Source: Acidobacteriota bacterium (GTDB taxonomy: Bacteria; Acidobacteriota; Terriglobia; Terriglobales; Acidobacteriaceae). From it: 37,254 bases of DNA. Position numbers and translations under genes: made by a program. Shown here in pieces: positions 7,543 through 37,254 of this stretch (positions are counted from its first letter, which is position 1; each line of letters starts with the position of its first letter). The stretch spans positions 1 through 37,254 of the forward strand of contig QIAN01000090.1 in NCBI GenBank assembly GCA_003225005.1, written 5' to 3'. The notes below the pieces were generated by a model, which was given only the letters and a program-made list of their open reading frames with translations, was not told where the DNA came from and did no database searches.

Positions 7543-7580
7543 GCCATTTCTCATTTCTCATGGACAGCCATTTCTCATGG
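7543..7580 (+). repeat. Short direct repeats GCCATTTCTCAT
   Basis: GCCATTTCTCAT occurs at 7543-7554 and again at 7567-7578, with a partial TTCTCATGG between at 7555-7563. The 24-base period lies just upstream of the candidate receptor promoter on the minus strand. It could be a regulator-binding repeat or a scar of local duplication. Confidence 0.5.
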
Positions 7581-7624
7581 AGATGGAACATTCCCCCGGC
7601 AGATACGGAAGGGATCGCCGTCTC

Positions 7625-7789
7625 GCGACCCAGTGGGAGTTCCAGTCACGCTGCACGTGGTCACATTCGATCAACGACGGCTCGGTCGGCGGGGGTGAAG
7701 CCACCGGACCGGAAAACGTGAGTTGCCTGCATTGCGATAAGGGCCCCAGCATTTTCGATGTTCGCCACAACGTCACTGTGAACGCCGTC
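7625..7789 (+). pseudogene. Fragment of a TonB-dependent receptor barrel
   Basis: About 55 codons read like the C-terminal third of an Oar-like receptor: a CTWSHSINDGSVGGGEA segment (compare YMWSHGLSDVGFGAGEY in the receptor at 4319-7334), then PENVSCLHCDKGPSIFDVRHNVTVNAV. Sequence on either side in the same open frame (7577-8224) does not continue as a receptor, so that longer frame is a chimera of debris and not a gene. Orientation is opposite to the neighbouring receptor, so it is not a simple tandem duplicate of that gene. Confidence 0.6.
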
Positions 7790-8190
7790 GTGCCGTATTC
7801 TGCGTCATACAACGCGCTGTTGAGGCGATACTCCTCGACTGCATCCTGGGAAATCTGCAGTCGGGTTGCGATTTTTGAGCTTGTTCTTGAATGCCGCCGG
7901 CAAACGCTTGGTAAGCTGCTGGGTCTGAAATTCAAGGACTTCTACGCGTCCGCGGATAATTTCCTGGTTACAAAAGAGCATTTCATTACCCGCGACGTCG
8001 CAGCCGGCAAGAATGCTCCACCCCCGCAGAGTCGTCTATGGGTTCAACCGACCAACGCGGAGGTTCTGATTGCGCAGGGCCAACACCCGGTTCCCACTGT
8101 GAATCAATTGGCATCGGGTGTTTCTGCAATATGTTGGGACCTCCAAGTCAATCAATGTTGTGTGAGTCCGGCATTTGGAAGAACCTCATC
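7790..8190. other. Debris between gene fragments
   Basis: No intact gene. On the minus strand around 7800-7980, switching frames gives pieces such as VEVLEFQTQQLTKRLPAAF and IATRLQISQDAVEEYRLN. The latter faintly recalls the C-terminal end of ImmA/IrrE-type proteins, but this is too weak to name. The stretch is best read as remnants brought together by insertions and deletions. Confidence 0.35.
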
Positions 8191-8367
8191 TTTCGTTCAC
8201 TGGTTTGGAGCCTGGGGTACGTAGTTGTCCCCAATGTGGACTATGCTCACCGCGCTATTTTAGAACTCGACGACTGGGGAACCTCAGACAAGGGGTTTCT
8301 CTCGTATTGGCGCTATCTCGAACCGAGTGAGGAGACCATTCGCCGGGACCTGATTGTGCCGCTGCAA
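8191..8367 (+). pseudogene. Internal fragment of an unidentified protein
   Basis: A stretch of about 59 codons has strongly protein-like composition: YVVVPNVDYAHRAILELDD followed by GFLSYWRYLEPSEETIR. It has no plausible start (upstream codons of the open frame are low-complexity debris), and after residue 110 of that frame the text becomes arginine-rich nonsense, close to where the IS66-type cassette begins. I do not recognise the parent family with certainty. It is probably the remains of a longer exported protein interrupted by the insertion. Confidence 0.4.
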
Positions 8368-8412
8368 CGTGTCCTTTCGGCAAGGCTGCGCACTCGGCGC
8401 ATTCGCTCGATC

Positions 8413-10027
8413 TCAATCGGCATTTGAGAGGCTTCGCTTCAATGCCGTGCGGTAATTCCAGGGCATCCAGCCCGCGGGTTTGGCTGGGAGCTCCTGTGTG
8501 TGCCGCTGGAGTTCAGTGAGGTAGTCGAAGGGATTGACATCATTCAGTTCGCATGTGTGAATCAGGCTCATGTATAGGTCACCGACTTCGGCACCATTCA
8601 GTGTCTTATAGAAGAGTGAGTTCTTCCGGTGAAGAATCGCTTTTTTCAGCGCGCGCTCAACCAGATTGTTGTCGAGTGGGCGCCTGGCTCGCGCAGAAAA
8701 AGGGTCAGCGCTTGCCAGTGCCGCAGCATTTAGGCGATGGCTTTGCCTAAGCCGGAGTTCGGCTCCACTTTGTTTTCCTGCAGCTGGGTGTGCAGCCGTT
8801 GGTGTAAGGCGTTCATCACTGGCTGGCTGTGTTGCTGGTGAAGGTGCAATCGTTCTACGCGTGATAGCCGACGCTCTCGCGCCAGTCGGTTCCTGGTAGT
8901 ATACCTCGCCCAACGCCTCCAGCACATGACGACATGGTTCAGGAAAGATGGGTGTGATCTGAACAAACTGCCTTCTTCCATGGGCGAGACAGTTCCCCAC
9001 TAACAACTGGATGGGCTTCGGTGCATTTCGGGATAACGCATCCGACATCTGAATCGGCATGGGCAGCTCCGCCGCGCGCCGTTTCAGTACCTCGGCAAGG
9101 TTCTCTCCCGCATGTTGGCGTCCGGTGAAGAACAGCGCAATCTTGCGCCCTGCGGCCGTCGAGACCACCCCGGAAGTGAAGATACCGGTGCGTTCGCCTG
9201 CTTCTTCGGTGATGGCCCGTCGGAGCGCCAACACCTTCATGCTGGTGTCGTCGTTGTGCAGGACCTCGCCCTGGGCCGCCTGTCGAATCAGCTCATCGCG
9301 CGCCGGCTTGATCAGCTCCGACGCCTCCTCCACGATCTCCCATTGCGTGGACGCCGGCAGCGGGATCCCCAGATTCTTTTCCAGATCCTCCAGCCGGTAA
9401 AACGGCATGCCCGTGCCGTATTTCAACTGTGCGATCATCGCCGCCGCGCTTTCGTCGTACTTGTCTTCACCCACTCCTTCCGGTGTATCCGCGCTATACA
9501 CTTCTCCGCATAGATTGCAGCGCAAGCGCTGCAGCTCGTAAACCGTCGCCGTCAGGGGAGCTTGTCCCACGATGCGCACCAGCCGCCTCGGCTCCTGCTG
9601 CTCGTAGACTTTGCCCTTCAGGCAGCCGGGGGCACTTGTCGCCATGTTTTAGGCTCTCGTGAGAAACCCTGACTCGGCGCGGGTTGCGATAAGCTTCGGC
9701 CCGGTTTCGTCCGTGGCCGGGCGCATTCTGCTTTCGTTCTCCAGCTTTGCTTGTACCCTGTTTGTCGGCTGCTGTCTTCGACGTTCCCTCCATGCCGGCT
9801 TTCTTCGGCACCGCTTCGGTCTTCTCCGTTGAGGCCGGGAACAACAACTCGCGGAGATCGTGGATCGTGGTTTCCTGATCTGCGACCAGATCTGTCAGGT
9901 AAGTCAGCGCCTCCACCACCCCCTTCAGCTTGCGATGCTCTTCCGCCGACAGCGCCGCTGGGGCATGCTCTACCAACTGATTCCACTCCTCGCGGTCCAT
10001 GTCGATGAACTCGATTGCCGATCTCAT
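8413..10027 (-). pseudogene. tnpC: IS66-family transposase TnpC, decayed (three frameshifts and a stop)
   Basis: The N-terminal part starts at the ATG at 10027 (MRSAIEFIDMDREEW) and includes a helical LVADQETTIHDLRELLF segment. A run of five G at 9628-9632 shifts the frame into GCLKGKVYEQQEPRR, then the zinc-binding CNLCGEVYSADTPEG and the catalytic core: HNDDTSM (first Asp), QMSDALSRN (second Asp), NNLVERALKKAILHRKNS (Glu). Between the last two blocks the text leaves frame near 8897 (RNRLARERRLSRVERLHLHQ resumes one frame over), meets an in-frame TAA at 8730-8732, and returns near 8680. The C-terminus PAGWMPWNYRTALKRS is normal for IS66 TnpC. Start and the upstream gene's stop overlap as ATGA, so the two were a translationally coupled cassette. 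No IS66 TnpB gene was seen. Confidence 0.85.
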
Positions 10028-10329
10028 CCTACCTCGCCGAGCAGTTCGCGAAACCGGGGGCTCAGTGGATATCCCAGAACATGCTTGATCGAACGGTTCG
10101 GGACATAGCTGTTCGAAGCTTTGCCCCGCCCCGTTGTCTCTCCCAGCCGTACCCAGTTCGCGGCGTAGTAACAAGTGCCACGGAATCGCTGCGGATCCAC
10201 GAACGTTTCCAGGAAGTACACCGGGTGACCGTAGAAGTTCTTCCAGCCCTGAGAGATGCGCACCCCATGCGGCCCAGAATGTGAGAAGGTGATCAAGTGT
10301 TTTTTCAGGTCTCTGGCTGATCGCCACAC
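10024..10329 (-). pseudogene. DUF4338 (DruA-like) protein, C-terminal part of a decayed gene
   Basis: The C-terminal domain is clear: NFYGHPVYFLETFVDPQRF, RGTCYYAANWVRLGETTGRG, then NRSIKHVLGYPLSPRFRELL. These are the conserved blocks of DUF4338, the family that contains the Druantia protein DruA and many proteins encoded beside IS66-type transposases. The N-terminal half, expected upstream to about 10.9 kb, is unreadable; only a SHILGRMG-like scrap survives in another frame. The stop codon overlaps the TnpC start (ATGA), which points to a mobile-element cassette rather than a Druantia defence locus; no DruB-E genes are present. Confidence 0.65.
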
Positions 10330-10737
10330 TGGTCAACATGGGGGTCGGCGTCGCAAAGCAGGCTATTCCATCAAGGATGAGGTCCGATGGCTTTTTTCGT
10401 CTTTGCAGTCCCCGCGAATTTCGATGCTCATTTGTCAAGGCACCCTTGGTCCTCCATTCCCCAGTGGTTGTCTTCTCCACTGAGTGCAACACGGTGAGGA
10501 ATCTGCTGTTGCAGCTGTACCGTCGGAGTCAGCTAGAACGGGGAGCGCCGCACTCTTTTTCGGTGCTCCCCGAAGACATTGAGGAATTGTATCCGTCCTT
10601 GAAGCCGCACAAGAAATCAAGTAGCTTGTGTGTGTCCCAGGCACTCGCGCCATTGAACTCAAATCGCGACCTCGAGTCATGTTCAGGTTAATTTCAGGGA
10701 GCCTGCAATATGATTTGCGGCACAAGAACGGAGACAC
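10330..10737. other. Intergenic stretch upstream of the inositol-type operon
   Basis: Holds unreadable remains of the DUF4338 gene on the minus strand (to about 10.4 kb), the stem-loop at 10539-10572, and presumably the promoter of the operon starting at 10738. I could not pick a convincing -35/-10 pair or a LacI-type operator. Confidence 0.4.
10539..10572. other. GC-rich stem-loop
   Basis: CGGGGAGCGCCG (10539-10550) pairs with CGGTGCTCCCCG (10561-10572), a 12-base stem with one G-T wobble and a ten-base loop ending in five T. It may be a transcription barrier between the decayed cassette and the operon, or an old element end. Confidence 0.45.
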
Positions 10738-11802
10738 ATGCGCCAGTACATCCCACGCCATTACCCGTCCGTCTTTTTTTCAGGTTTGTCACTCCTTCTC
10801 GCCATGATTTTGATGCTTTCCCCAACAGCAGTTCAGTCGCAGTCTGCTTCCGCCACCGGACGGCTTGAAGGAATCGTGACCGATTCCACCGGAGCCGCCG
10901 TGCCGGGTGCAGACGTTACCGTGCGCAACCAGAACACGGGAATTTCCACGACTCTACGGTCCGGGGCCGAGGGCGATTTCACGTTTCTGTATCTTGATCC
11001 TGGCACCTATGAGGTCTCAATTCAGAAAGCTGGATTCAACAAACTCGTGCTGAAGGACATCACGGTGACGGTCGGCACCCGCGCGATCATTCACCCGCAA
11101 CTGGCCGTCGGCAGAATCGAAACTACCGTCTCAGTAAGTGCAACCACACCCTTGGTTGATACTAGCGAATCATCTCTCGGCACAGTCGTGGATCAGCAGA
11201 GCATCGAGTCTCTTCCCCTCAACGGACGCAACTTCACCGACTTTGCACTGCTAACCCCAGGCGCCACCACCGACGGCGATTTCGGCATGATCAGCTTCAA
11301 CGGCGTCGCGGGAAACTTCAACAATTACACGGTCGATGGCGGCAACAACAACAACGCCTTTTTTGCACAGCAGGTCGGACGTACCATCCCTTTCCAGTTT
11401 AGCGAAGACGTAATTCGCGAATTCGAGGTCACCAGTACCGGATTCGAAGCCGAGTTTGGCCAGGCCGGAGGCGGCCTGGTAAATACTGTCACCAAGAGTG
11501 GCACCAACCAGGTTCACGGCGACACCTACTACTACATCCTAGACTCCTCCACCAGCGCCAACGACAAGATCAACGAGGGGCAGGGGATTGCCAAACCTCA
11601 CAATCGCAGGCAGCAGTTTGGCGGTACCGTTGCCGGACCGCTCATCCACGATCGGCTGTTCTATCTCGGCAATTATGAAGGCCAGGTGCGCAACGAGCCC
11701 TTGACCGTCAATGACGGCCCCGCCGTGAATGGTCTGCCTTCGGATTTCTTTGCCAACAACCCCGGCTTGGCCGCTCAGGCGTTGCCGACGTTTAGATTTT
11801 AG
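10738..11802 (+). CDS. Oar-like TonB-dependent receptor, truncated after the plug
   Basis: N-terminal third of an outer-membrane receptor. A signal peptide (LSLLLAMILMLSPTAVQSQ) is followed by a carboxypeptidase-regulatory domain (GRLEGIVTDSTGAAVPGADV, about residues 40-125), then the plug with SIESLPLNGRNFTDFALLTPG, NYTVDGGNNNN, IREFEVTSTGFEAEFGQAGG and GGTVAGPLIHDRLFYLGNYEG. The frame then ends after residue 354, where family members continue through a barrel to about 1,000 residues. The start ATG has a CGGAGA before it. The TAG stop sits inside the ribosome-binding AGGAG of the next gene, so what remains is tightly joined to the LacI gene. The barrel was probably lost by deletion, leaving a non-functional receptor at the head of an otherwise intact operon. 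A plug-only role is conceivable but unsupported. Confidence 0.85.
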   Translation: MRQYIPRHYPSVFFSGLSLLLAMILMLSPTAVQSQSASATGRLEGIVTDSTGAAVPGADVTVRNQNTGISTTLRSGAEGDFTFLYLDPGTYEVSIQKAGFNKLVLKDITVTVGTRAIIHPQLAVGRIETTVSVSATTPLVDTSESSLGTVVDQQSIESLPLNGRNFTDFALLTPGATTDGDFGMISFNGVAGNFNNYTVDGGNNNNAFFAQQVGRTIPFQFSEDVIREFEVTSTGFEAEFGQAGGGLVNTVTKSGTNQVHGDTYYYILDSSTSANDKINEGQGIAKPHNRRQQFGGTVAGPLIHDRLFYLGNYEGQVRNEPLTVNDGPAVNGLPSDFFANNPGLAAQALPTFRF

Positions 11803-34349: not shown

Positions 34350-35327
34350 TCAAGCGGACAGCGACAACTCCATTTGCTTTGGCGGCCGGCGCTGGGGCGC
34401 ATACTTGCGGAGGAACGATCGGACGAATTCGTTGACTAGCCGAGAATTATCACCCGCTCTCATGATCACATGTGTTTCGAACCACAATGACGTCTCGGAG
34501 AGCGGCTTTACCACTACACGATCACCGCGAAAGCCAAGGGTTGCAGGTTTGGTGAGGATGGCGACGCCAACGTGCTCAGCTACCAAATGAAGCGCCTGTT
34601 GAGCTGCAAGGATATCGTGCGCATATTTCGGAGCGATTCCCTCGCGTCTCGCTGCCTCCATGATTGCATGAACAACTGGGTAAGCTCGTCGAGCAAACAG
34701 AATCCAGTCATCCTTTGCCAAATCTTGGAGCGTGATGTCTTTCTCTTGAGCAGCCGCGCGGATCTGCGGGAGTGCAGCATAAAGAGGTGCCTGCGCGAAT
34801 GCCGCGGTCGTGATCTGAGAATTTTCCAGCGCTGCCGTCACCAACGCCAGATTTAGTTCGCCTGCCATCACACTCCGAACCAGTTCGCTTGAGAATTCGC
34901 TGATGAATTGAATGCGGAGCTTAGGGTACAGGGGCAGGCGAATTGCAAGAATGGCTGAAACCCAGGCTTGGTCGGCCTCGGGCGAGTGGCCGATAGTCAA
35001 AACGCTATCGCTCCCGTCGCGAACAGCATGCCCGAGCTGAACAGCCCGGTCTATGTGCAGGAGCGCTTCCTTGACTTCGGCCTCATCCTCCCAATCCCAA
35101 TTTTGGTCTTGGCCTCGGGAGACTTTCTCGAACTGCTGACAGGCGTCAGCCCATCGGCGTACAAAATCTTTCGATTGAGTAGCGGCAACTTCTTTATTTC
35201 GGCTGAAATTGTGGCAGAGTAATTTTTCTAGGCAAGGCCCAAAGTCGGCGGGGTCAAGAAGTTCATTTGCTAAAATAGCGGCTGCAAAATAGTCATCATT
35301 GGGTTGGGGGTTATTCCATACGCTCAT
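34350..35327 (-). CDS. LysR-type substrate-binding domain protein without helix-turn-helix
   Basis: 325 residues from an ATG at 35327 with a strong GGAGG just before it; a longer frame to 35471 lacks a ribosome site. Residues 95-320 are a LysR effector domain: HIDRAVQLGHAVRDGSD (the linker-helix end), VLTIGHSPEADQAWVSAIL, LRIQFISEFSSELVRSVMAGELNLALVT, then the second lobe to LVNEFVRSFLRKY. The first 90 residues (MSVWNNPQPNDDYFAAAILA, then DFGPCLEKLLCHN) are not the winged helix-turn-helix that normally starts these proteins. It may sense a ligand without binding DNA itself, or be a regulator whose 5' end was swapped. Its neighbours are an unknown small gene and an integrase. Confidence 0.8.
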   Translation of the reverse strand: MSVWNNPQPNDDYFAAAILANELLDPADFGPCLEKLLCHNFSRNKEVAATQSKDFVRRWADACQQFEKVSRGQDQNWDWEDEAEVKEALLHIDRAVQLGHAVRDGSDSVLTIGHSPEADQAWVSAILAIRLPLYPKLRIQFISEFSSELVRSVMAGELNLALVTAALENSQITTAAFAQAPLYAALPQIRAAAQEKDITLQDLAKDDWILFARRAYPVVHAIMEAARREGIAPKYAHDILAAQQALHLVAEHVGVAILTKPATLGFRGDRVVVKPLSETSLWFETHVIMRAGDNSRLVNEFVRSFLRKYAPQRRPPKQMELSLSA

Positions 35328-35379
35328 AGCCCTCCGTTGTAGGATTTTTGCAATCTTTGCTTTTGTAACGATTTGCGCC

Positions 35380-35392
35380 CTAGCTAAGCTAG
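35380..35392. promoter_or_regulatory. Short palindrome upstream of the LysR-type gene
   Basis: CTAGCT-A-AGCTAG is a perfect 13-base palindrome about 53 bases before the start at 35327. It could be a regulator site or a recombination core near the integrase; there is no second copy in the window to support the latter. Confidence 0.3.
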
Positions 35393-35430
35393 TACGACTG
35401 GCTGGGCAATGACGACGGCCACGTCCAGCT

Positions 35431-35808
35431 TCATCGTGCACCCTCAGACAGCCGTCGCAGCGTGTCGTCAATCTCGATCTCGAACATCACCGACGCGACC
35501 CGCTCCTCGACCATCGACGGCTGAAACAGTTGAGGCAACTCGCCTTCCTGTTCGGCGTCGAGGTCGTCTTCATCGACATTGTTGAGGTTGGGATAGTTCT
35601 CGCGAGTCAAGGGGAGCCCGTACTTGACCAGCACGGCCACGCTCGAGTGTGCCATGGCGTCACGTTGCAACGCCTCAGCTTGGCCGACAATCCATTCCTG
35701 CATCCGAGGACTGAGTTTGATGAGCGGGAACGTCTCGAGCAACCCGAGTTCGCGCAGCAACCCGCCCAGAATCGCATCGATGAAAACCGTCTCGATCGCA
35801 TGTGTCAT
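35431..35808 (-). CDS. Hypothetical protein next to the integrase
   Basis: Acidic soluble protein of 125 residues, unrecognised. Start ATG at 35808 has GGAGG six bases before it. The N-terminal half is hydrophobic-helical (IDAILGGLLRELGLLETFPL), followed by MQEWIVGQAEALQRDA and an acidic stretch NNVDEDDLDAEQEGE (about 76-90), then a helical tail. It lies 72 bases after the integrase stop on the same strand, so it is probably cargo of the same integrated element. Confidence 0.65.
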   Translation of the reverse strand: MTHAIETVFIDAILGGLLRELGLLETFPLIKLSPRMQEWIVGQAEALQRDAMAHSSVAVLVKYGLPLTRENYPNLNNVDEDDLDAEQEGELPQLFQPSMVEERVASVMFEIEIDDTLRRLSEGAR

Positions 35809-35880: not shown

Positions 35881-37254
35881 CTAAGCGAAAATCTCGTTCA
35901 CCTTATCCCGTACATGCTGGCTGCGTGACGGCTTCAAATATCGCATCGTCGATTCCATGTCTGAGTGACCGAGCCATTGCTGCACCGTGCGCAGATCGAC
36001 ACCTGCCCAGAGACACCGAGTAGCGAAAGTCGCACGGAACTTGTGAAGCCAGAAGTTGTCTTCGTCGAGCTTCGCACGCTCGGCAACCGCTTTCAGGCAG
36101 TCGAGGAAGTCGAGCTTTGGCTTGCACCCGGCAGTAGGGAAGACCAAACCGCACGTCTTGTCTGCCTTTGCCTTCCAGGCCTTCAGATTTCTTGCCAGCT
36201 TCGCAGGAATCGGAATCTCGCGTTCTTTGTACGCCTTCGGCGTCCATCCACGATCAGGCTTGTGGCTGACACGAACGGTCGCGTGGGCGATGTTGATATC
36301 TGACCAGTACGTGTACATGACTTCCTGCTCTCGCATTCCTGTCATCAGGAAGAACTCGTACCAAAGCCGCTCTTCCTCATCGCAAGCCGCAAGCAGCTTG
36401 TCGAGTTCTTCCAGCTCGTAAATTTCAGGTTCCTCTTCGGTGTATCGCGGCCAGTCGTTCTTTCCTACTAGACCACGGATTCCGTTCGCCTTCAGAAATG
36501 TCATTACGTTCTCGAACTTGTTGTAAACGGACCGGGGTGCCTGCTCCTTCTCGTCTCTGAGGAACGCGGAAAACTTGAGCAAGTCTCTGCGGTCGATGTC
36601 TTCGAGGTAGAGCTTCGGACAGGACTCGGTGAAGTAGTTCATCGCGGTCGTGTAAGCGGCCACGGTCTTGGGCTTCTTCGTCAGCTTCGTTTCGTCCAGG
36701 AACTCCGCGACCGCTGCCGCCAGGGAGCGGTGTCCGTTCTGCCCGTCAGGCACGACGGAGACGCCGTTGTTCAGAGCGTTCAGTTCAGCCTCCTTGCGCA
36801 GCCGTCGCGCTGCCGCGTCTTGCGCATCCTTGCCAACTGACAGCCGTACCCGCTTCGACCCTTCCCGCCACTCCAAGTAGTAAGCGCCTTCTGGATGCCG
36901 CTCTTCATGGCCATTCACGACCACAATATCGGGCTTGACGCGCCCATTGGCAGATTCAGCGACAGGGCAGTAGCGCAGTCCCTGGTCGGTTTGTACCCGT
37001 TTCGTGAGATTCACGGAGTACCCGCCTGTCCTCATTACAAATCGCTTCTGATTCTCTCGGCGGGTAACGTATTCGAGATTCGACACCTCGCTATGAGTGC
37101 AGTCGCCATCCTTGTGCGTGATCTCGTGGTTTGGGGGGCAGTCGCCCAGAAATGCAGAGGCGACCAAGCTATGAACCGTGCATTTTCGTTGGAAACCGCT
37201 GCTGGATAGGGTGACGTAGAGTCGCCCGTTCTTCATCTTGACGGGCTGCAGGAT
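35881..37254 (-). CDS. Tyrosine recombinase/integrase with N-terminal HNH endonuclease-like domain (5' partial)
   Basis: The frame runs off the window; the first in-frame ATG is at 37236, but six further codons upstream (ILQPVK) look like part of the same domain, so the true start is probably outside. Numbered from that ATG, residues 15-65 resemble the HNH domain of homing endonucleases: VHSLVASAFLG, ITHKDGD, NLEYVTRREN. From about 78 it reads as an Acidobacteriota-type phage integrase: ANGRVKPDIVVVNGHEERHP, the core-binding domain (about 170-255), and the catalytic domain with Arg302, a lysine near 334-337, His398-x-x-Arg401, His424 in LGHSD and Tyr433. All catalytic residues are present. 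A separate integrase could start at Met68 (37035), but no ribosome site is seen there. No attachment site found. Confidence 0.85.
   Translation of the reverse strand: MLQPVKMKNGRLYVTLSSSGFQRKCTVHSLVASAFLGDCPPNHEITHKDGDCTHSEVSNLEYVTRRENQKRFVMRTGGYSVNLTKRVQTDQGLRYCPVAESANGRVKPDIVVVNGHEERHPEGAYYLEWREGSKRVRLSVGKDAQDAAARRLRKEAELNALNNGVSVVPDGQNGHRSLAAAVAEFLDETKLTKKPKTVAAYTTAMNYFTESCPKLYLEDIDRRDLLKFSAFLRDEKEQAPRSVYNKFENVMTFLKANGIRGLVGKNDWPRYTEEEPEIYELEELDKLLAACDEEERLWYEFFLMTGMREQEVMYTYWSDINIAHATVRVSHKPDRGWTPKAYKEREIPIPAKLARNLKAWKAKADKTCGLVFPTAGCKPKLDFLDCLKAVAERAKLDEDNFWLHKFRATFATRCLWAGVDLRTVQQWLGHSDMESTMRYLKPSRSQHVRDKVNEIFA

Follow-up and report, generated by a model that had tools for sequence, protein, structure and literature searches.

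I-HmuI-like NUMOD4/HNH enzymes are encoded in phage introns or as free-standing genes (PMC3428280, PMC3943268, PMC12724721). The catalytic residues of I-HmuI are D74, H75 and N96, and D74 is described as conserved (PMC12724721). The Tsy transposon carries tyrosine recombinases together with a separate GIY-YIG nuclease gene, which is non-essential for transposition (PMC10293859). In polinton-like viruses, HNH domains are fused N-terminally to helicases, and the text of that study places HNH beside tyrosine recombinases in two elements only, as separate proteins, with one NUMOD4-HNH_3-AP2 arrangement (PMC12220804). ShiLan-type HNH genes are hidden in phage methylase genes and read in another frame from the host gene (PMC11855218), and homing-nuclease domains are reported in phage-satellite conflicts (PMC10448857). 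In the main text of a survey of tyrosine recombinases (PMC8138268), "HNH" and "nuclease" occur 0 times as word starts.

The locus described here encodes a NUMOD4-HNH module and a tyrosine integrase in one frame. Like I-HmuI (PDB 1u3e) and its relatives, it has the NUMOD4-HNH_3 half, the fold and the catalytic His and Asn. However, Thr stands in place of D74, an integrase takes the place of the C-terminal DNA-binding part, and the module is not a free gene, with no intron seen around it. With the arm-binding tyrosine recombinases classified in PMC8138268, it shares a tRNA attachment site and an N-terminal region that precedes the core-binding and catalytic domains; candidate arm sites are paired on the P side of the G272 island and, in two HNH-less relatives, on either side of the core. 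It differs from these recombinases in the extra NUMOD4-HNH domain at its front. As in Tsy, a homing-type nuclease travels with tyrosine recombinases, although Tsy has separate genes and another nuclease family, in contrast to the single predicted polypeptide here. The polinton-like virus proteins are alike in placing an HNH homing-type domain ahead of a mobile-element DNA-handling protein, which in their case is a helicase. In ShiLan, too, an HNH gene interrupts a host gene with neither an intron nor an intein around it, whereas the acidobacterial module lies in frame, at the 5' end, and is fused. Each half is of a known kind; no description of HNH or NUMOD4 fused to a tyrosine recombinase was found in a full-text search of mainly open-access journal papers.

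The fused gene and its distribution

The window, i.e., the whole stretch of DNA that was analyzed, is the entire contig G000:C511 (37,254 bp) of a 7.9-Mb genome in 550 contigs. The following features were assigned at its end:

35881-37254, minus strand: HNH-tyrosine integrase frame, NUMOD4 tail first; 457 codons and a stop, truncated on the 5' side where the contig ends
37015-37254, minus strand: visible part of the NUMOD4-HNH module (aa 1-80), homologous to the modules of loci L061, L062 and L063
37048-37176, minus strand: HNH_3 core (aa 27-69) with T46-H47-K-D-G, N59 and N68; from Pfam, with I-HmuI equivalence via alignment
37012-37017, minus strand: junction S80/V81; HNH-less relatives have a short N-terminus (MNRE, NTQSKE) and then the VNLTKRV found here
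36805-37014, minus strand: integrase N-terminal region, kept in the fusion and matched by HNH-less paralogues and fused relatives; presumed arm-binding from its position
36442-36717, minus strand: core-binding SAM-like domain PF13102, from Pfam
35929-36411, minus strand: catalytic domain PF00589, from Pfam and motif alignment
35431-35808, minus strand: small protein adjoining the integrase, without Pfam match; the HNH-less paralogue in G000:C24 is likewise followed by a homologue

An earlier note, made from the sequence alone, had described a single open frame joining an HNH segment to a tyrosine integrase, and this holds: the frame is open for 457 codons, and its recurrence in two other assemblies speaks against chance. 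Pfam places HNH_3 at aa 27-69 (E 2.9e-10, 40 bits against a cut-off of 24.8), Phage_int_SAM_5 at aa 180-271 (E 1.2e-7) and Phage_integrase at aa 282-442 (E 7.3e-23), the latter two also above their curated cut-offs. The segment had been called NUMOD/HNH-like; HNH_3 is borne out, and the stretch ahead of the HNH core belongs to the tail of a NUMOD4 domain, which only the relatives show in full. All of the integrase residues R-K-HxxR-H-Y had been claimed as well. In alignments to XerD and to a XerC-like recombinase of known structure, the motifs R (TGMR), HxxR (HKFR), H (LGH) and Y (RYL) are matched; the catalytic Lys lies outside the assigned set. The link, put at about residues 66 to 78, needs a sharper border, as the integrase actually begins at V81, which is residue 75 when counted from the ATG of codon 7 as was done then and falls inside that region.

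Two further observations concern the remainder of the window. A protein with a LysR substrate-binding domain is encoded near the integrase (34350-35471, minus strand), with no LysR helix-turn-helix detected. Pieces of an outer-membrane beta-barrel (PF25183) lie at 7577-8221 and 10738-11799 on the plus strand, with an IS66 transposase frame between them (8416-9645, minus strand); the outer-membrane gene at 7577-11799 is possibly interrupted by this transposase, which bears on the earlier remark that many other genes of the window have indels.

The missing 5' end of the window fusion was not found in its assembly, where the module occurs at one place only (the fusion itself) and no NUMOD4 scores above the cut-off elsewhere (best match, E 2.75). 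Judged by its relatives, the gene should extend for some 30 more codons past the contig end, with a leader and a tRNA-Ser ahead of it. The complete fusion is present in genome G037 (485 aa) and in genome G272 (504 aa), which belongs to another genus and carries it mid-contig. NUMOD4, HNH_3, SAM_5 and Phage_integrase all score above their cut-offs in both, with NUMOD4 at aa 4-47, HNH_3 at aa 57-99 and the integrase from aa 111. The HNH part therefore is not the end of a separate gene joined by an assembly indel, which the earlier note had considered, as the same junction occurs in these other assemblies.

Among the 398 genomes of the family, a close module (E ≤ 1.4e-44) was found in four, namely the window genome, G037, G032 and G272, and a further four contain only distant HNH genes in frames of 149 to 233 aa. 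A search of 45 genomes of the genus returned the full fusion in G037 and, in G032, a module without an integrase after it. The G032 NUMOD4-HNH gene (L049, 584-1033, minus strand; L062, 6001-6369) adjoins a tRNA-Ser(TGA), and its identity to the fusions stops within a few bases of the fusion junction, followed by unrelated sequence; it may be a deletion remnant or a free form. The modules differ from one another at 19 to 29% of 240 nt.

Wider searches gave few additions. A scan of a genome collection of 84,980 species, confined to records that contain either of two short peptide patterns without mismatch and possibly omitting the window's own records, yielded three loci: QIAJ01000128.1 (Acidobacteria gp1), which is the G272 contig, and JASHPH010000103.1 and JASHOH010000246.1 (Candidatus Sulfotelmatobacter), which are the contigs of G032 and G037. 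At class level, eight of 399 genomes had a NUMOD4 match at E 0.01, five of them above the cut-off in frames of 180 to 254 aa, which are too short for an integrase; this sample evidently lacks the known carriers, none of which is among the matches. At phylum level, the two hits at 1e-10 among 347 genomes are the window and a free 186-aa relative with 45% identity. No record covered at least 80% of the query among the 1270 matching of 50,697 phage records or the 340 matching of 72,556 plasmid records, and a scan of IMG/VR, again for sequences with a perfect hit to either of two short peptide patterns, gave no viral locus with the fusion. None of the 80 viral NUMOD4-HNH loci kept (of at least 597) matches an integrase profile within the HNH frame; one of them (L189) has an integrase-like frame in its flank. 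The fusion is rare and, among the genomes searched, confined to a few soil Acidobacteria, with three fused loci known.

HNH-less relatives, attachment sites and leader

The earlier note had proposed to look for integrase-only homologues starting at Met68; such homologues are common and start at the junction. The window genome itself has three such paralogues that match from aa 75-80 on (C24, 86%; C93, 82%; C287, 81%). It also contains broken integrase-family copies on C431 and C309, which are signs of decayed islands. In total, 49 loci from 37 family genomes were collected, with a readable 5' end in 45. In 42 of these, a short N-terminus (e.g., MNRE or VANTQSKE) leads into VNLTKRV or a variant; the open frame ahead of the integrase spans 5 to 65 codons and in no case (0/42) contains HNH. 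The other three have the HNH module followed by S/VNLTKRV or S/VHLTKRV, with an identical junction residue in all three. The Thr codon of VNLTKR is ACG in 3/3 fused genes versus 2/42 of the others. HNH-less and fused integrases coexist in one genome in two cases, and also within the genus.

ARAGORN detected a tRNA-Ser, with four different anticodons, in 18 of the 26 loci tested, of which L019 and L048 represent a single site; the remaining eight gave none. A tRNA-Ser adjoins the fusions of both G037 and G272, and the tRNA tail motif TCTCCGCC lies upstream of 40 of the 42 readable HNH-less loci and of both fused loci with a visible leader. The island of G272 is complete, with attL and attR sharing an identical 28-bp sequence, GAATCCCTCCCTCTCCGCCAGTACTTTA, at a distance of 32.5 kb:

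G272:C104, 27623 and 60141: ends of the island (L113 and L114)

These 28-bp direct repeats equal the tRNA-Ser end. In our reading, the fused gene is the integrase of an acidobacterial tRNA-Ser genomic island, and the tRNA and att sites of the window copy are expected past the contig end.

Repeats flank the attachment core. About 150 bp inside attR of G272, on the P side, two TGATACC sites are spaced 9 bp apart. Two IMG/VR contigs with HNH-less integrases, L101 and L102, have a core ending in CTCTCTCCGCCA with repeat pairs on both sides (TGCTACC in L101, TGATACG in L102), and look like the unsplit form. In these contigs and in G272, the two repeats of a pair are separated by 9 to 10 bp on one flank of the core and by 12 bp on the opposite flank. 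The words TGATACC, TGCTACC and TGATACG are element specific and, from their place beside the core, are probable arm sites of the integrase. In all three carriers with a visible leader (G037, G272 and G032), the second P' site TGATACC is altered to TGAACCC, TGAGTCC or TGAGTCT, leaving one intact P' site only, and GTATACC occurs 24 bp from the first P' site.

The leader is common to fused and HNH-less genes up to GTGATACCTACACTGA, about 45 nt past the tRNA-Ser end. After GTGATACCTACACTGA, the carriers have other sequence with its own Shine-Dalgarno (SD)-like AGGAGCAGTG and ATG. As the ribosome-binding site and start codon of the integrase are replaced in this way, translation most likely yields a single polypeptide of about 485 to 500 aa. 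A separate observation is an inverted repeat in the leader that folds across the SD and the start codon (z scores with a median of -2.4, and below -1.5 in 30 of 42 loci, two fused ones included), often GGTGAT...ATCACC in HNH-less genes and ATACCTACACTG...CAGTGxGGTAT in fused ones. RNA covariation in this hairpin was absent (0/4 pairs changed on both sides). The repeat could be a silencer of read-through from the tRNA promoter or a DNA operator.

Fold, selection and exchange of the 5' module

The G272 module aligns to I-HmuI without gaps over 99 residues (E 2.7e-15). Its model (L061), built from a 58-sequence alignment, has a mean pLDDT of 86 and matches 1u3e_M with E 1.7e-9, a TM score of 0.88 and an rmsd of 2.0 over 108 columns; the HNH fold, whose completeness had been in question, is complete in this modelled module of a relative. 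The model of the whole fusion (6 rows; pLDDT 56.6, HNH part mostly below 50) was too poor for use, and an integrase scan of viral contigs for a better one returned five loci only, which were too few.

All four modules keep the catalytic His and Asn, and all four have Thr where I-HmuI has D74. Judged from the residues, this Thr speaks against full nuclease activity, while the kept His and Asn leave nicking possible. Thr is also seen in a free-standing NUMOD4-HNH relative (L106), which has THLNG there. At the Thr76 position, all 80 viral NUMOD4-HNH loci have N, a count biased by the presence of VNHKDGNK among the six search seeds. The module ends at about aa 110, without its own C-terminal DNA-binding domain, and the integrase comes next; in another free relative (L112), the point that corresponds to the junction is followed by a different C-terminus, at the place of the integrase in the fusion. 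The fusion thus seems to have swapped the C-terminal part of the endonuclease for an integrase. Values of dN/dS were 0.06 to 0.12 for the module (5/6 pairs computable), which are rough because dS, at 1.2 to 2.3, is near saturation, and 0.05 to 0.075 for the fused integrases (three pairs). These ratios indicate purifying selection on both halves.

In a protein tree of 40 integrases, the three fused members were united in 0% of 200 bootstrap trees, and the starred branches alone are compatible with a single origin of the fused genes. Nucleotide trees of 41 rows were built separately for the 5' end (first 225 columns) and the 3' part (columns 400-1209, 772 kept). The 5' end groups the fused genes together (72/86, not starred; recovered in 73% of bootstrap trees), and the 3' part rejects their union (p-AU 1.5e-5). 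Such a pattern resembles co-conversion around a homing site. HNH-less 5' classes served as controls. The NTQ class (9 rows) is likewise one clade at the 5' end (92/93) and rejected at the 3' part (p 1.6e-7), and the MHR class (5 rows) is rejected at the 3' part (p 1.2e-4) and not at the 5' end (p 0.56). The ANR class (3 rows; 3' p 6.6e-4, 5' p 0.036) and the MNR class (17 rows; 3' p 2.2e-4, 5' p 0.018) are rejected at both ends. These trees argue that 5' ends of about 225 nt are generally exchanged as cassettes in this integrase family, NUMOD4-HNH being one of them. The earlier suggestion of a homing gene that invaded the 5' end of an integrase gene is upheld in that a homing-type module was added there; an inference of homing from the mosaic alone is weakened, because HNH-less classes show an equally strong 5'/3' mosaic.

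Possible roles of the module

We favor, with a probability of roughly 55%, a rare fusion, kept under selection, by which an island integrase gained an in-frame, homing-type NUMOD4-HNH module as an exchangeable 5' cassette. The nuclease half of an I-HmuI-type homing endonuclease would have been joined in frame to the 5' end of the integrase gene. The integrase half, going by the att repeats, arm sites and catalytic residues, would bind the arm sites and the tRNA-Ser 3' end and recombine there. As the HNH half does not have the C-terminal part of its free-standing relatives, the integrase would now supply the targeting. Most likely, the module would serve as a homing-derived DNA binder or nickase that is brought to att and leader DNA, probably that of related islands that lack HNH and share these tRNA genes. 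Cleavage by the HNH part, and the coupling of nicking to integration proposed in the earlier note, are hypothetical. The module would travel as one of several exchangeable 5' cassettes of the family.

Other explanations were weighed against this one. The module may be catalytically dead and retained as an extra DNA-binding or regulatory domain, for instance one that reads the altered P' arm or leader. The Thr at the D74 position, the retained fold and the changed second P' site with its nearby GTATACC in every visible carrier leader are in keeping with this, but the invariant His and Asn are not, and Thr at this place is not peculiar to the fusions, as the free-standing L106, of putative activity, has it too; we regard a dead module as a tentative alternative, with a chance of being correct that is limited yet real. 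Active homing is rather unlikely. Here the module would cut HNH-less alleles near the P' arm or start codon, repair would copy the module and about 225 nt, and the split site would protect carriers. Its position within sequence that is conserved in HNH-less loci (TGA/TACC...), the opposite behavior of the fused genes in the 5' and 3' trees and the coexistence of HNH-less alleles in the same genome and genus fit such a course. However, the NTQ and MHR classes behave alike without HNH, carriers are rare, and the divergence between modules gives no sign of a recent sweep.

Two products, with an HNH protein that reads on into the integrase plus a free integrase from an internal start, are improbable. 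In G272 and the window genome, aa 104 is an in-frame ATG, and initiation there would produce MRSGGYSVNLTKRV or MRTGGYSVNLTKRV, which resembles a normal N-terminus; yet no clear SD precedes this ATG, and G037 does not have it, nor any in-frame ATG, GTG or TTG between TTG60 and GTG117, which is inside the integrase. An assembly artefact or chance read-through of two neighboring genes might be suspected from the window copy, which sits at a contig end. It is ruled out for practical purposes by two other assemblies with the same junction, in which both halves are open and conserved; another genome with the joined architecture had been sought, and the whole fusion in G037 and G272 provides it twice.

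The protein could also be a nuclease-armed integrase that recombines into tRNA-Ser and cuts the leader or arm DNA of rival HNH-less islands with an I-HmuI-type nickase, aimed by the DNA-binding domains of its integrase half, with its own altered P' arm giving protection. We hold this to be a speculative and rather unlikely possibility. If it is true, rival islands would be displaced, or their integrase genes converted to carriers. A tyrosine recombinase needs no nuclease, hence the question whether the module is a parasite, a weapon between islands with tRNA-Ser sites in common or a re-used DNA-binding domain. The family amounts to a natural experiment for this question, as att sites of one kind are served by integrases with and without HNH, and the core and candidate arm sequences are available. 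If borne out, the acidobacterial fusion would be a natural example of a nuclease-recombinase chimera.
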